The notes: generated by a model from the letters alone, not told the origin. A stretch of DNA of 64,000 nt from Deltaproteobacteria bacterium (GCA_016218825.1 JACRCV010000085.1:1-64000), one strand, 5' to 3'. Shown: positions 13,591 to 35,656, counted from the stretch's first letter. Translations and numbers: made by a program.

Positions 13591-13618
13591 GAAACCGTCA
13601 ACCCGGCAGGAACTTGCG
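13591..13618 (+). promoter_or_regulatory. Bipartite motif GAAACC-N9-GCAGGAACTTGCG, copy 1
   Basis: GAAACC (13591-13596), nine bases, then GCAGGAACTTGCG (13606-13618), ending 19 bp before the ECF sigma start. The identical pair with the same spacing recurs on the opposite strand at 14240-14267. Position and conservation suggest a binding site or ECF-type promoter element. GAAAC-like -35 sequences are common for ECF factors, but no convincing -10 is visible. Confidence 0.6.
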
Positions 13619-13637
13619 CGCCGGCGCGGAGCCTTCG

Positions 13638-14198
13638 ATGATCGGGGAGCCCGATGTCGACGCCGCGGCGCTGATGGCGCGCGCCGCCGACGGCGACCGC
13701 GGTGCCTGGCGCGAGCTCTACCTCGCATACCGCGACTACGTGTTCCGCACCGCCCTGCGCTTTCTCGGCAGTGAAGCGCAGGCCGCCGACATCACCCAGG
13801 ACGTCTTCGTGGCGCTGTTTGGCCGCGCCCGGCAGTACAAACCGCAGGCCCGCTTCACGACCTTCCTCTTTCGCGTCGTCGCCAACCGTTGCCTAAACGA
13901 GCGCGCCCGCGCCCACACCCGCCTGCACGACGACGACGCGTCGAAACACGACGCCCTCGCCCGCCTCAGCGCCGGCCCGTCCGAGAATCCCGAAGCGCAC
14001 TTGCGCCGCGCCGAGAGCGCCGCGGCCGTGCGCCGCGCCATCCTGGCGCTTACGGAGTGGCAGCGCCTGGCGGTCATCTTGAGCCGATTCGAGGGGCTGT
14101 CGTACGAGGAGATCGCCCTTGCGATGTCGACCTCGGTCGGAACCGTCGAGTCCTTGCTGTTCCGGGCGCGCCGGAAGCTCGGCGAGCTGCTTCGCTGA
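13638..14198 (+). CDS. RNA polymerase ECF-type sigma factor
   Basis: 186 residues from the ATG at 13638 (GGAG upstream; a TTG eight codons earlier is less likely). Region 2 is clear: RDYVFRTALRFLGSEAQAADITQDVFVALFGRA-type sequence ending FTTFLFRVVANRCLNERAR. Region 4 has LTEWQRLAVILSRFEGLSYEEIALAMSTSVGTVESLLFRARRKL-type helix-turn-helix spacing. The next gene encodes its probable anti-sigma factor, and the operon continues into an efflux pump, so it likely controls that pump in response to an envelope or metal signal. Confidence 0.93.
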   Translation: MIGEPDVDAAALMARAADGDRGAWRELYLAYRDYVFRTALRFLGSEAQAADITQDVFVALFGRARQYKPQARFTTFLFRVVANRCLNERARAHTRLHDDDASKHDALARLSAGPSENPEAHLRRAESAAAVRRAILALTEWQRLAVILSRFEGLSYEEIALAMSTSVGTVESLLFRARRKLGELLR

Positions 14199-14239
14199 CG
14201 CCCGCAACCCACGTCACGTTTGTCGCAGGTGGCCGCGGC

Positions 14240-14267
14240 CGCAAGTTCCTGCGAGCTCGCCGGTTTC
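14240..14267 (-). promoter_or_regulatory. Bipartite motif GAAACC-N9-GCAGGAACTTGCG, copy 2
   Basis: Read on the minus strand, GAAACC (14267-14262), nine bases and GCAGGAACTTGCG (14252-14240) match copy 1 exactly in both halves and in spacing. It lies in the 99-bp gap between the sigma gene and the anti-sigma gene and points back toward the sigma gene. The two copies bracket that gene in opposite orientation. Confidence 0.6.
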
Positions 14268-14297
14268 ACTCGCAGGTCACACAAGGAGTCAAGGCGC

Positions 14298-14774
14298 ATG
14301 CGCTGCCGGAAAGCCCAAATGTTCATCTCGCGCCAACTCGACGGCCGGCTGGACGAAGAGACCGGTGTCGTCCTCGCCACACATCTTTGCGCCTGTGCCG
14401 ATTGCGCCCGCTTCGCCGCGCTCGTTCGCGAGAGTTGGCGTCGCCTCGCCGCGGACGCGCCGGCGGTGGGCACCACCCCCGACGTCTTCGCCGGCATCGT
14501 CGAGCGTGCCACTCGCGCCTCGCCACTCGCCGCTTGGCTGGGCGAGCTGTGGCGCCTGAGCCCGAGCCGGGCCGCCACCGCCGGGGTGCTCGCCTCGGTG
14601 ACCGCGATCGGCGTCACCCTCGGCACGCTCGTCGGCGCGCGCCTTGACGCGCCGCCGACAGCGCCGGTGCTGCTCGAAGCCCAGGCGCTCGCGGACAGCT
14701 TCGCCGACCTGCCGCTCGGCACACCGCTCGCCGACTTCGCCGCGTCGTTCGCCGGCCGCCGGGGCTCGCCGTGA
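14298..14774 (+). CDS. Membrane anti-sigma factor with zinc-binding N-domain
   Basis: 158 residues from the ATG at 14298, which has AAGGAG about 10 nt upstream. The N-terminus holds the anti-sigma zinc-finger pattern: an early Cys (MRCRKAQMF), then H-x3-C-x2-C (HLCACADC). One membrane helix follows near residues 92-114. The periplasmic tail is only ~45 residues. It should sequester the adjacent ECF sigma factor at the inner membrane. Its last codons overlap the next gene (GTGA). Confidence 0.85.
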   Translation: MRCRKAQMFISRQLDGRLDEETGVVLATHLCACADCARFAALVRESWRRLAADAPAVGTTPDVFAGIVERATRASPLAAWLGELWRLSPSRAATAGVLASVTAIGVTLGTLVGARLDAPPTAPVLLEAQALADSFADLPLGTPLADFAASFAGRRGSP

Positions 14775-15226
14775 GGCGCCTGGTCTTCTGGTCCCTCCTC
14801 GCGTCCTCGCTCGCCGTGAACTTGGCGATCGGCGTCCAGGTACTTCGCGCCCGTATGAATACGATGCCGCTCATGCGACTCCTCGATCTGACGAGCGAGC
14901 AGCGCGCGACCATCCTCGACTTGCGGACCGCCTTCCTGTCATATCGGGCGGAAAACACTAGGAAAACCAGCGAGCTGCGGGGCGAGCTCGGCCGGCTACT
15001 GACCGCCGACGCGCCTGACCGCGCCGCCGTCGACGACGTGCTCAGGCGCATCGGCGAGCAGCAGGCCGCCTTGCAGCGCCGTGTCGTCGAGCAGGCGCTC
15101 GCGGTGCGGGCGGTGCTGACGCCGGAGCAGCGGCCCGCCTTCGAGGCGCTGATGCAAAGACATCTGCGCGCCGGCGTCCCGATGCAGCAGCCGGCGCCCG
15201 ACGACCTCCACGAGGACCAGCCATGA
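14771..15226 (+). CDS. CpxP/CnrX-like periplasmic sensor protein
   Basis: 151 residues from a GTG overlapping the anti-sigma stop. An N-terminal membrane or signal segment is followed by an all-helical region with LDLTSEQRATILDLRTAF and VLTPEQRPAFEALMQRH, the paired LTxEQ motifs of the Spy/CpxP and heavy-metal-resistance (PF13801) group. Such proteins sit in the periplasm and, as in CnrYXH, can relay metal status to an ECF/anti-sigma pair. The C-terminal tail contains HEDQP but no clear His/Met-rich metal cluster, so the signal may not be a metal. Confidence 0.75.
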   Translation: MRRLVFWSLLASSLAVNLAIGVQVLRARMNTMPLMRLLDLTSEQRATILDLRTAFLSYRAENTRKTSELRGELGRLLTADAPDRAAVDDVLRRIGEQQAALQRRVVEQALAVRAVLTPEQRPAFEALMQRHLRAGVPMQQPAPDDLHEDQP

Positions 15227-16467
15227 AAACGACGTTCCTGTTTGTAGGGCGGCGCGCCGCGCTGTCGGCCGTCGCGACCGCGGTGCTCGGCGCCGGACTG
15301 TACCTTGCCGTGCGACCCGCGACCGCGCCCGCGAACGGCACGATCGCGAGCGTACCGGTGACGCGCCACACGCTGCGCTCGACGGTGCAGGCAACCGGCG
15401 TCGTGCGCGCCGTGACCGGCGCCGAGGTCAAGGTCGGCGCGCGCGTCTCCGGCCAGGTCGCACACCTCTACGCCAACGTCGGCGACACGGTCGAGAAGGG
15501 CTCCAGGATCGCGAGCATCGACGACCGCGACCTCCGCGCCCGGCTCGCCCGTGCGCAGGCTGACCTCGCCGCCGCCAAGGCCCAGCTCGCGATCGTCCGC
15601 CGTGGGGCGCGCGACGAGGAGCGGCGCGAGGCGCACGCCGTCGAGCAGCAAGCCCAAGCCGAGGCCGAGCTCGCACGCGTGCAAGAGGAACGCGCCGCGA
15701 CCCTGGTCGCCCGAGGCTTCGGCGCGGCGGAGGAGCTCGATCGCGCCCACCGCGACGCCCGGGTGGCGAGCGCCAAGCTCGACTCCGCGGCGAGCCGGCG
15801 CGCCCTCGTCGAGACTCGTTTTCTCCCCGAGGACGTCGCCCTGGCCGAGGCACGGGTCGCGCAAGCGCAGGCCGTCGTCGACGAGGCCACCGCCACGCTC
15901 TCCTTCACCACGATCTCGGCGCCCATCAGCGGCGTCATCGCCCAGGTCGCGACGCAGCAAGGTGAGACCGTCTCGGCCGGACTCAACGCCCCGACCTTCG
16001 TGACCCTCATCGACCTCGATCGCCTCGAGGTCGCCGCCTACGTCGACGAGGTGGACGTGGGCCGCATCAAGCGCGGCGAAGGCGCGACCTTCACGGTCGA
16101 CGCTTTCCCGGACGTCGAGTTCAACGGCACGGTCACCGCGGTCTACCCGCGCGCCGTCGTGCAGTCGAACGTCGTCAACTACATCACCACGATCCGCATC
16201 GAAGACTCCGAGGGACGCCTCAAGCCCGACATGACGGCCAACGTCAGCATCAACCTCGCCGAGCGAAAGGACGTGCTCGCCGTGCCCGATCGGACCTTGA
16301 GGCGCGAGGGCGGCAAGACCGTGGTGCACGTCGCCAAGGCCGGCGGCCACGAGAGCCGGTTGGTGCGCGTCGGCCTGCGCGGCGGCGGCCTCACCGAGAT
16401 CACCGCCGGCCTCGCCGAGGGCGAGCGCGTCGTCGTCGCCGAGACCGGCAAAGGAGAGAGCAAGTGA
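15223..16467 (+). CDS. Membrane fusion protein (MacA/HlyD type)
   Basis: 414 residues, overlapping the previous gene by 4 bp. One N-terminal membrane anchor precedes a split lipoyl/barrel-sandwich domain (GAEVKVGARVSGQVAHLYANVGDTVEKG and the second half from FTTISAPISGVIAQV), an intervening long alpha-helical hairpin (~95-215), a beta-barrel and a membrane-proximal domain. Together with the downstream MacB-like ATPase and permeases and the divergent TolC protein it builds a tripartite exporter. Confidence 0.9.
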   Translation: MKTTFLFVGRRAALSAVATAVLGAGLYLAVRPATAPANGTIASVPVTRHTLRSTVQATGVVRAVTGAEVKVGARVSGQVAHLYANVGDTVEKGSRIASIDDRDLRARLARAQADLAAAKAQLAIVRRGARDEERREAHAVEQQAQAEAELARVQEERAATLVARGFGAAEELDRAHRDARVASAKLDSAASRRALVETRFLPEDVALAEARVAQAQAVVDEATATLSFTTISAPISGVIAQVATQQGETVSAGLNAPTFVTLIDLDRLEVAAYVDEVDVGRIKRGEGATFTVDAFPDVEFNGTVTAVYPRAVVQSNVVNYITTIRIEDSEGRLKPDMTANVSINLAERKDVLAVPDRTLRREGGKTVVHVAKAGGHESRLVRVGLRGGGLTEITAGLAEGERVVVAETGKGESK

Positions 16468-32823: not shown

Positions 32824-33342
32824 GTGACAGCGAACAACGCCACCGTCGCCGAGCTCTACCGCCGCTTCGCGCCGGTCGTCTACCGCCGCAGCCTGAAGAT
32901 GTTGGGGCAGGAGGCGGACGCCCTCGACGCGGTCCAGGACGTGTTCATCACCGTCAGCCGCCGGCTCGACGACTTCCGGGGCGAGGCTAGTCCGATGACC
33001 TGGATCTACAGCATCACCACCAACTACTGCCTGAACGCGCTGCGGGGGCGCAAGGTGCGCGCCCGCGCCGCCGAGACCTTGCGCCGCGAGCCGGAGAAGA
33101 CCGCCGCCGACGACGCCGCGGCCTTCGAGAGCCGACAGCTGTTGCAGCTCCTCGCCGCCGGCCTCAACCAGCGCCAGATCGAGGTGCTCACCTACCACTA
33201 CCTGGACGGCCTGAGCCAACCGCAAATCGGCGAGATCCTGGGCATCTCGGAGCGCGGGGTGCGCAAGATCCTGGCGAAGGCCCGCGACCACGCCGGGGCC
33301 CGCCTCGCGAGCCTCGAAGGCAAAGGAGCGCCTCCCCGATGA
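32824..33342 (+). CDS. RNA polymerase ECF-type sigma factor of the caspase operon
   Basis: 172 residues from a GTG at 32824. Region 2: VVYRRSLKMLGQEADALDAVQDVFITVSRRLDDF, then MTWIYSITTNYCLNALRGRK. Region 4: LNQRQIEVLTYHYLDGLSQPQIGEILGISERGVRKILAKAR. It overlaps by 4 bp a gene for a zinc-finger anti-sigma protein, so the operon is ECF sigma, anti-sigma and caspase. No copy of its own promoter is evident. Confidence 0.9.
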   Translation: MTANNATVAELYRRFAPVVYRRSLKMLGQEADALDAVQDVFITVSRRLDDFRGEASPMTWIYSITTNYCLNALRGRKVRARAAETLRREPEKTAADDAAAFESRQLLQLLAAGLNQRQIEVLTYHYLDGLSQPQIGEILGISERGVRKILAKARDHAGARLASLEGKGAPPR

Positions 33343-34136
33343 CCCACACCGTCGAGCACCTCTCCGATCTCGTCAACGACGAGCTCTGCGCCGGCCTCCC
33401 ACCCCGTGAAGGCGTCGAGGTGCATCTCGCCCGGTGTGCAGAGTGCCGCGAGGCGCTCGACGCGGCGCGCGCGGCGCACGACCGGTTTCTGGCGCGCTAC
33501 CCCGCGCTCGAGACCCTGCCGGCGCGGCGCAAGTCGCCGGCGGTCCGAGAGGAGGACCCGGGGGCCGGCTGGCTCGACTGGCTCCGGGCGTCCAGGTCCA
33601 CGCGGCGCTTCACCTGGGGCCTCGGGCTCGCGGCGGCGACCGCGGTCGCGATCCTGATGGTGCCGCGCTTCCAGCCGCTGCCGCCCGAGACCGGGATCCG
33701 CCTCAAGGGCGGCTCGAGCGTCGAGCTCTTCGTGGCGCGCGGCGACCGCTCGCAGCTGTTCTCCGGCCAGCCGCTCCGGGCCGGCGACCGCTTGGCGATC
33801 CGCTACAGCACCGAGCACCGCTACCTGATGCTCGTGAGCGTCGAGGCCTCGGGCAAGATCTCGGTGCTGCTGCCGGCCGACGGCGAGGCCAGCATGCCGA
33901 TCGAGCCGGGGCACGCGCGCCGCCTCGACGACGGGGTCGAGCTCGATGCCTACCCGGGCCCGGAGCGGTGGGTGGCGCTCCTGACCGACCAACCGTTGAC
34001 GCGGGCCGACGTGGTCCGTACGCTCAGCGCGGCGATGCTCGACGCCGGCGGCACGACGCGACTGACCGCGGCGCTGGAGCCGTTGCCGTTCGCCGGCGAG
34101 CAGCTGTCATGGTTGCTCACCAAGGAGGCGCCGTGA
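33339..34136 (+). CDS. Zinc-finger anti-sigma factor with DUF4384-like C-domain
   Basis: 265 residues from the ATG overlapping the sigma gene. An H-x3-C-x2-C pattern (HLARCAEC) near residues 29-36 marks the anti-sigma domain. One membrane helix follows at ~87-107 (FTWGLGLAAATAVAILMV). The remaining ~155 residues form a beta-rich domain (YRYLMLVSVEASGKISVLLPADGE-like strands) resembling DUF4384, which often accompanies caspase-like proteins. It would expose that domain to the periplasm. The downstream gene starts inside its stop codon. Confidence 0.85.
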   Translation: MTHTVEHLSDLVNDELCAGLPPREGVEVHLARCAECREALDAARAAHDRFLARYPALETLPARRKSPAVREEDPGAGWLDWLRASRSTRRFTWGLGLAAATAVAILMVPRFQPLPPETGIRLKGGSSVELFVARGDRSQLFSGQPLRAGDRLAIRYSTEHRYLMLVSVEASGKISVLLPADGEASMPIEPGHARRLDDGVELDAYPGPERWVALLTDQPLTRADVVRTLSAAMLDAGGTTRLTAALEPLPFAGEQLSWLLTKEAP

Positions 34137-35656
34137 GCCGCGCCGGGTTGTTGTTCGCCGCCCTCATCGCATCCGCCACCGCGGCGCACGCCGAGCCGCG
34201 CCGGGTCGCGGTGGTGGTCGGCAACAATCAGGGCGGGCCGGGCAAAGGGCTGTTGCGCTATGCGGAGCGCGACGCGACGCGGGTCGCACAGATCCTCGAG
34301 AGCCTGGGCGGCGTCGACGCCACCGAGCTCCTCCTCGGCCGCAGCGCCGCGGAGCTCAAGGCGACCCTGGAGCGCGTCACCCGCAACGCCGAAGGCGCCG
34401 AGGCCCAGAGCGTGTTGTTCTTCTTCTACTCCGGCCACGCCGACGACGACGCCCTGTTGATGGCCGGCAGCCGCTTCAGCTTCGCCGAGCTGCGGCAACG
34501 GTTGAACGACGCCCCGGCGCGGGTCGCGATCGCGTTCGTCGACGCCTGTCAGTCCGGCCGCCTGACCCGCTTCAAGGGCGGCAAGGCGGTGCCGGTCGTG
34601 GACGTGCGCTTCGACGACAACCGCTCGTACCGCGGCCGGGTGTTCGTCACCTCGAGCGCGGTGGGCGAGGCGTCGCAAGAGGCCGACGAGGTCGGCGCGT
34701 CGTTCTTCACCCACTACCTGGTCTCGGCGCTGCGCGGCGCCGCCGACTTCTCCGGCGATCGGGTGGTGTCGCTCGAAGAGGCCTACCAGTACGTGTACCG
34801 CAACACCCTGCTGCGGACGAGCGAGACCCTCTCCGGACCACAGCACCCGACCTACGACGTCGACGTCACCGGCCGCGGCGAGCTGGTGCTGACGCGGTTG
34901 TCACCGAGCCAAGCGACCTTGGTGCTGCAGAAGCCGAGCTACGGCACCTACTACGTCCGCGACGCCGCGGACGGCACCCTGGTCGCCGAGGTCAGCAAGG
35001 CGCGCGGGCAAGTGACGCGCCTGGCGCTCGCCCCCGGACGCTACAAGGTCACCCGCGCCGAGGAAGACCGGCTGCTCGAGACCGAGATGGCGATGGAGGC
35101 CAGAGCCGAAGTGCCGCTCGACGACGCCACCATGCGCGCCCGACCGCTTTCATCGAGGACCACGAAGGGCGCGGCGCACCAGACGCTCGCCGCCCTGTAC
35201 ACCTACAGCTCCGGCTACCTGCAGAACGCCGGGGCGTTGAACGGCGTGCGGCTGGGCTACGACTACGACCTCGGCGTGCTGCAGCTGGGCCTCGGCCTCG
35301 AGTACGGCTACGACGCCTACGGGCGCGAGGACGGCATCGCGGTGCAGCTGCACGACACCGCGCTCTTGGCGTCGGTCGGCCACCGCGTCCCCCTGGCCGC
35401 CATGTTCCAGGCGGCCTTCGCGCTGCAGGCCGGGCCCGCCTGGGTGAGCGAGACCGGCGCGACCGTGAGCGGCCGCCAGCGCCTGACGAGCGCGGTCTTG
35501 GCGTACCGCGCGGTCGTCGGCCTGGAGCTCGAGCTCGTGCCGATGGTGGTGGGGGTGTACGGGATCGGCGGTCAACGCCTGCTCAAGACCGCGACCGGCC
35601 TCGAGACGCGGCTGTCGTTCGGGGTGCAAGCCGGCGTCGGCGTGCGCTTCGATTGA
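34133..35656 (+). CDS. Secreted caspase-family (C14) protease with C-terminal barrel-like domain
   Basis: 507 residues from the GTG at 34133 (AAGGAGG upstream). A signal peptide ending AHA (residue 20) precedes a caspase p20-like domain: VVVGNNQG, catalytic His102 in FFFYSGHAD and Cys139 in FVDACQSGR, with FVTSSAVGEASQEA and FFTHYLVSALRGA following. Residues ~275-345 form a PEGA-like beta-segment; the last ~160 residues alternate like outer-membrane strands and end GVGVRFD. Both catalytic residues are intact. The signal peptide indicates extracytoplasmic action, unusual for a caspase homolog. Confidence 0.85.
   Translation: MSRAGLLFAALIASATAAHAEPRRVAVVVGNNQGGPGKGLLRYAERDATRVAQILESLGGVDATELLLGRSAAELKATLERVTRNAEGAEAQSVLFFFYSGHADDDALLMAGSRFSFAELRQRLNDAPARVAIAFVDACQSGRLTRFKGGKAVPVVDVRFDDNRSYRGRVFVTSSAVGEASQEADEVGASFFTHYLVSALRGAADFSGDRVVSLEEAYQYVYRNTLLRTSETLSGPQHPTYDVDVTGRGELVLTRLSPSQATLVLQKPSYGTYYVRDAADGTLVAEVSKARGQVTRLALAPGRYKVTRAEEDRLLETEMAMEARAEVPLDDATMRARPLSSRTTKGAAHQTLAALYTYSSGYLQNAGALNGVRLGYDYDLGVLQLGLGLEYGYDAYGREDGIAVQLHDTALLASVGHRVPLAAMFQAAFALQAGPAWVSETGATVSGRQRLTSAVLAYRAVVGLELELVPMVVGVYGIGGQRLLKTATGLETRLSFGVQAGVGVRFD

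Follow-up and report, generated by a model that had tools for sequence, protein, structure and literature searches.

Why should an exported homolog of the caspases be encoded in a single unit with an ECF sigma factor and a membrane anti-sigma factor? Such a unit occupies positions 32824-35656 of a 64,000-nucleotide stretch of DNA from a Deltaproteobacteria bacterium (GCA_016218825.1, JACRCV010000085.1:1-64000), which in its entirety we call the window. An initial annotation had recognized the three genes and had surmised that the caspase, secreted and furnished with a predicted outer-membrane barrel, might cleave or be sensed by the DUF4384-like domain of the anti-sigma factor.

The three-gene unit and its phyletic spread

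The domain matches bear out the three-gene unit, all features of which lie on the + strand. The first gene (32824..33342) codes for a short protein of 172 aa possessing only the sigma-2 and sigma-4 regions, as is characteristic of ECF sigma factors (TIGR02937, 5e-29; Sigma70_r2, 5e-15; Sigma70_r4_2, 3e-11). The second (33339..34136) codes for a membrane anti-sigma factor of 265 aa, in which a zinc finger, a transmembrane (TM) helix and a DUF4384-like periplasmic domain were recognized from Pfam matches, a structure model and 117 homologs, and the third (34133..35656) for an exported C14 caspase homolog of 507 aa (Peptidase_C14, 1.5e-12). The sigma and anti-sigma genes overlap in the sequence ATGA (33339-33342) and the anti-sigma and caspase genes in GTGA (34133-34136), the latter gene beginning with the GTG at 34133, with AAGGAGG 5 bases upstream. 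The claim that these 4-bp overlaps exceed chance is upheld by their recurrence in 79 anti-sigma/caspase and 71 sigma/anti-sigma pairs of homologous trios. Since the genes flanking the unit at either end are transcribed in the opposite direction, the operon comprises exactly three genes. A second ECF sigma/zf-HC2 anti-sigma pair is present in the same window (13614-14774) with no caspase found adjoining it; this pair is succeeded by a gene for a small protein of exported appearance (14771-15226) and one for a membrane-fusion protein of the efflux type (15223-16467).

A neighborhood search revealed that the trio is conserved well beyond this locus. Caspase homologs were detected in 165 of the 195 genomes of the phylum (Myxococcota), and among the 127 distinct caspases fetched, 117 are immediately preceded by an anti-sigma gene and 105 by the complete sigma/anti-sigma pair; a full trio is also found on a contig from Fibrobacterota (L011). 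Caspases lacking the complete upstream pair include several situated at contig ends and others for which the pair is divergent (e.g. L083). In a less biased sample, obtained by a Pfam C14 search of seven genomes, the anti-sigma factor was present in the same locus at 23 of 30 loci. The genome that yielded the window contains four further caspases of the same kind, and a Pfam C14 search recovers no others from it; three of the four have an anti-sigma gene directly upstream, with one contig ending before the sigma gene. For the fourth, on contig 18 of this genome (L135, 105000-119000), the sigma/DUF4384 anti-sigma pair lies 3.3 kb from the caspase on the opposite strand, separated from it by a gene for a VWA-like protein, and the anti-sigma factor retains an R-x-K-G sequence outside its TM helix. 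We also observed a clade of caspases (L009, L012, L034 and L083) with a TPR-like segment inserted before the barrel and no co-directional anti-sigma gene; a divergent sigma gene is present at L009 and L034, and a divergent sigma/anti-sigma pair with the KG dipeptide at L083.

The proteins of the trio have further diverged in concert, with correlations between their distances of 0.92 to 0.96 (0.94 for caspase and anti-sigma factor, 0.96 for caspase and sigma factor) as against a permuted maximum of 0.15. As these correlations hold at a mean identity of only about 28-36%, paralogous trios appear to travel as units; this speaks for co-inheritance and not by itself for binding. When the regions preceding 95 sigma genes were scanned for an ECF promoter motif indicative of autoregulation, none was found, the counts falling within the shuffled range.

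Architecture of the caspase and the anti-sigma factor

The signal peptide reported for the caspase is indeed present once translation is begun at the GTG, spanning residues 1-20 (34133..34192; ..TAAHA/EPRR), and similar hydrophobic N-termini were seen in 24 of 26 homologs. An AlphaFold model is confident over most of residues 23-340, which encompass the caspase domain and a small beta domain with confident strands (residues 255-338; 34895..35146) placed between it and the linker to the C-terminal region. In a PDB fold search the model matches the structures of caspase-3, -7 and -8 (best E 2e-9), while sequence-profile matches are to metacaspases 1, 4 and 9; the PF00656 score of 48 bits against a cut-off of 21.4 likewise places the protein in peptidase family C14. 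The catalytic residues, His102 (34436..34438) and Cys139, are intact as the initial annotation had numbered them, and both are present in all 127 homologs. The cysteine is closely preceded by D137 (34541..34549 for both), conserved in 126 of 127, and a further acidic residue, D47 in helix alpha1 (34271..34273), is conserved in 125 of 127 and aligns with the 'ND' of metacaspases. The positions of these two aspartates correspond to Asp95 (for D47) and Asp211 (for D137) of TbMCA2, which have been proposed to line the S1 pocket for basic substrates (PMC4357240). By analogy to MALT1 Glu500, the invariant E183 (34679..34681; 127/127) is possibly a third residue of this pocket. Characterized C14 proteases other than the animal caspases prefer Arg or Lys at P1, and orthocaspases self-process (PMC5756287). 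With acidic residues kept at the expected places, the caspase of the window may likewise be specific for Lys/Arg. Additionally, we noticed an EF-hand-like acidic loop (D205-x3-D209-x6-E216, within residues 202-218; 34736-34786); its acidic residues hardly vary among the homologs (D 125, D 122 and E 125 of 127), and it might be a calcium site.

The C-terminal domain (35210..35653) is predicted to form an 8-strand outer-membrane beta-barrel. When the C-terminal profile of the family was compared with the PDB, the only matches up to E = 1 were the barrels NspA (9.9e-6) and OpA60 (3.9e-4). The hydrophobic alternation of the C-termini is well above that of shuffled sequences (mean z 2.07, and 2.7 for the window protein), with caspase domains giving -0.13. 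The domain, in most members some 160-180 residues long, shows little conservation (mean column identity 9%); a terminal Phe or Trp occurs in 54 of the 127 caspases and in no partner protein. Pfam barrel families recognize only a minority of members (OMP_b-brl 5 of 79), and the window protein, which ends in ..VQAGVGVRFD in agreement with the terminus GVGVRFD originally read, has no Pfam barrel match of its own. In its AlphaFold model, built with only 8 sequences, residues 340-507 have pLDDT <50 and no barrel is discernible. Structure prediction, which had been suggested for this protein, thus delivered a confident caspase fold and no confident model of a barrel of 8-12 strands; the profile gives the barrel good support at the level of the family, and for the window protein it is likely rather than proven. 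Some members depart from this plan: the C-termini of L002 and L013 are lengthened before the end by repeats of the G-x-Q-V-A-G-G-V-N type, which may be another surface domain, and those of L008, L022, L023 and L027, all of which keep the [KR]-G linker, appear by eye to consist of hydrophobic helices and a short tail rather than a barrel, with L027 alone among the four passing a strict hydropathy cut.

The anti-sigma factor has a cytoplasmic zinc-binding motif, H29-x3-C33-x2-C36 (33423..33446; H 94, C 95 and C 95 of 117 homologs), and then a single TM helix at about residues 95-111 (33621..33671), seen as a helix in the structure model and in the hydropathy. The HX3CX2C motif, here with the TM helix after it, is that of class I (zinc-binding) anti-sigma factors, although the Pfam zf-HC2 match is weak and below the cut-off (0.18); from the operon and the order of domains, the protein probably holds the sigma factor. 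Outside the membrane is a beta-sandwich (33720..34124) with confident strands from residue 128 and a match to Pfam DUF4384 over residues 146-219 (1.7e-4). We term it 'DUF4384-like' because its score lies under the curated cut-off of PF14326 (22.0 vs 27.0 bits), which close homologs pass. A fold search with this sensor domain gave only weak Ig-like and sugar-binding matches, none with E < 0.001. Of the 21 DUF4384 matches in seven genomes, 20 share their 3-kb locus with a caspase and one has it 3.3 kb away, and 23 orthocaspases of cyanobacteria are fused to DUF4384 (PMC8283722). Whether paired with caspases or fused to them, the domain thus belongs with these proteases, in one chain or two, an association which is suggestive, though not proof, of physical contact.

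Shared Lys/Arg-Gly sites and a proposed proteolytic relay

A second thread connecting the two proteins is a dipeptide of Lys or Arg followed by Gly. It occurs twice in the caspase, as K148-G149 (34574..34579; K 123 + R 3, G 126 of 127), in the loop 9 residues past the catalytic cysteine, and as K345-G346 (35165..35170; K 108 + R 18, G 126 of 127), in the linker before the barrel, and once in the anti-sigma factor, as K123-G124 (33705..33710; K 108 + R 4, G 114 of 117). Together as [KR]-G, the pair is kept in 126/127, 126/127 and 112/117 sequences respectively, and this conservation persisted when the sets were reduced to 52 and 38 divergent sequences. In the anti-sigma factor it is the best conserved pair (K 92%, R 3%, G 97%), above even the zinc ligands (~80%), a rank that it keeps among 52 divergent sequences. 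The three sites, all of them exposed, resemble each other in their surroundings: P2' is mostly a small residue (Gly/Ala) at all of them, and Arg is commonest at P3 of the loop (71%) and of the anti-sigma site (65%), the linker site lacking this shared P3 Arg. In the models, residues 142-147 and 149-164 of the caspase and 111-124 of the anti-sigma factor are disordered, all with pLDDT <50. A KG dipeptide lies 5-27 residues past the TM helix in 104 of 113 caspase-linked anti-sigma factors, where shuffling predicts 8.5%, and in none of 14 control anti-sigma factors, a small set, from the same genomes that do not adjoin a caspase. Two anti-sigma factors of one clade (L091 and L100) have Met-Gly in place of Lys/Arg-Gly at this site, and their caspases, which keep the catalytic residues, look active. 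Covariation of Lys and Arg between the caspase and anti-sigma sites gave no clear signal; as the changes at the three sites do not clearly track each other, this line furnishes no proof of a link.

As the most economical reading, we posit, with a probability of a little over one half (about 0.57), that the trio is a self-contained envelope-signaling module in which the caspase would release itself and then deliver the first cut to the anti-sigma factor. At rest, the cytoplasmic zinc-finger domain of the latter would hold the sigma factor, while the exported caspase would be moored in the outer membrane by its C-terminal barrel and would extend its protease domain into the periplasm. Upon a signal at the barrel or in the envelope, the caspase would become active and cut itself after K148, in caspase-like fashion, and after K345, thereby being freed from the outer membrane. 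The linker cut would settle a problem of geometry, because a caspase still moored to the outer membrane ought to be unable to reach a peptide that lies 12 residues from the inner one. The free protease, perhaps guided by the DUF4384-like domain, might then reach the inner membrane and cut the anti-sigma factor after K123, which is situated 12 residues beyond the outer end of the TM helix, whereupon intramembrane (site-2) and cytosolic proteases would complete its breakdown and the sigma factor would direct transcription. The link between caspase and anti-sigma factor surmised at the outset is carried further by the shared motif, which places the likely cut at the juxtamembrane K123/G124 rather than inside the DUF4384-like domain.

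The same observations could be accommodated by other arrangements, one of which makes the caspase the output of the system rather than its trigger: produced by the sigma factor upon some other signal, it would act on the envelope, on prey proteins or on its own cell, with the anti-sigma factor being controlled by other proteases. The caspase gene closes the operon, where a sigma target would be expected, and control of the operon that encodes them is common among ECF sigma factors. Moreover, bacterial caspases have frequently been connected with cell death or defence (PMC3501461). However, a mere output would leave unexplained the near-constant presence of a caspase beside this type of anti-sigma factor, the near-exclusive pairing of DUF4384 with caspases and the shared [KR]-G sites; further, PADLOC, run on the locus with antiphage defence in view, returned only a generic caspase match and no defence context. 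We therefore regard this explanation as unlikely.

Alternatively, the DUF4384-like domain might be an inhibitor or sensor of the caspase, to which the KG peptide is offered as a pseudo-substrate, such that a change in occupancy instead of cleavage signals to the sigma factor. Both the KG motif and the domain do track the caspase, and Lys/Arg loops can block the active sites of clan CD proteases, as in the gingipain prodomain (PMC4357240). Nevertheless, a KG that lies in a disordered linker and is flanked by poorly conserved residues is more reminiscent of a cut site than of a folded inhibitory loop, making this proposal distinctly improbable. More doubtful still is the notion that the dipeptides are structural and unrelated to cleavage, the module being wired otherwise: the KG of the anti-sigma factor could be a feature of the start of the DUF4384-like beta domain, and those of the caspase could mark turns, where Gly is common, and the Met found instead of Lys in two anti-sigma factors speaks in the same sense. 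Against this, the same K/R-G, mostly followed by Gly/Ala, recurs in the two proteins at three sites unrelated to one another, of which two are disordered in the models, and it surpasses the zinc ligands in conservation in the anti-sigma factor.

Relationship to known systems and implications

The arrangement of genes is real, but it is not unreported: the 2012 survey by Asplund-Samuelsson et al. records sigma-70 genes in 4 of the 5 metacaspase operons of M. xanthus and also in metacaspase operons of Anaeromyxobacter, Haliangium, Sorangium, Ralstonia and Fibrobacter (PMC3501461). These are very probably the same operons as the trio described here, for which the section concerned names no anti-sigma partner, barrel, cleavage sites or mechanism. 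In the open-access literature we found no report joining an orthocaspase to an anti-sigma factor or peptidase C14 to an ECF sigma and anti-sigma factor. Thus, while the sigma-caspase operon was already known, the anatomy of the trio and the logic of its cut sites appear to be new.

The proposed relay resembles the sigma-E pathway of RseA, DegS and RseP in having a membrane anti-sigma factor, an envelope signal and an expected first cut outside the TM helix. However, whereas DegS, a serine protease, has its anchor in the inner membrane, the candidate here is a cysteine protease of clan CD that would be moored to the outer one, and its gene belongs to the operon itself. Among proven systems, the closest in logic is type III-E CRISPR, in which the protease Csx29 cuts Csx30, an inhibitor of the ECF sigma factor CASP-sigma (PMC10028731). 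Common to both would be a caspase-like protease that cuts the inhibitor of an ECF sigma factor; yet Csx29 is cytoplasmic and activated by RNA via Cas7-11, in contrast to the exported, barrel-bearing caspase and zinc-finger anti-sigma factor of an operon devoid of CRISPR genes. The locus is accordingly not itself a type III-E Craspase module (Cas7-11, the TPR-CHAT protein Csx29 and Csx30), having instead three genes, a signal peptide and a barrel-like C-terminus.

The EACC1/EACC2 systems, which in other bacteria associate caspases with ECF genes (PMC8195603; NCBIfam NF047832), also show a caspase with a variable C-terminus and predicted self-cleavage, often with an ECF gene nearby. They differ from the trio, which has a membrane anti-sigma factor and an outer-membrane barrel and in which no EACC domain was found; as an EACC1-associated caspase (NF047832), the window protein scores 61 bits vs the cut-off of 140. 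For ECF54, too, proteolysis by neighbors, in that case CHAT, subtilase or carboxypeptidase proteins, has been proposed to control the sigma factor, but without an anti-sigma factor (PMC8999054), which the trio possesses. Whether the relay extends across the whole family seems to us evenly poised: the outer-membrane-tethered caspases of Myxococcota and their relatives would then constitute a large family of dedicated site-1 proteases of ECF anti-sigma factors, released and activated by themselves through the very K/G motif at which they cut their targets.

Multicellular bacteria possess many caspase homologs, for most of which no function is known. If our proposal is true, many of those in Myxococcota, including all five C14 genes of the genome that yielded the window, would be signaling proteases rather than effectors of death. 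Envelope stress signaling would gain a further class of protease, with transmembrane switches in which a caspase makes the first cut, and exact residues would be at hand for mutation. This would also parallel the control of a sigma factor by a CRISPR caspase, with proteolysis by caspases serving to relay signals across the periplasm to transcription.
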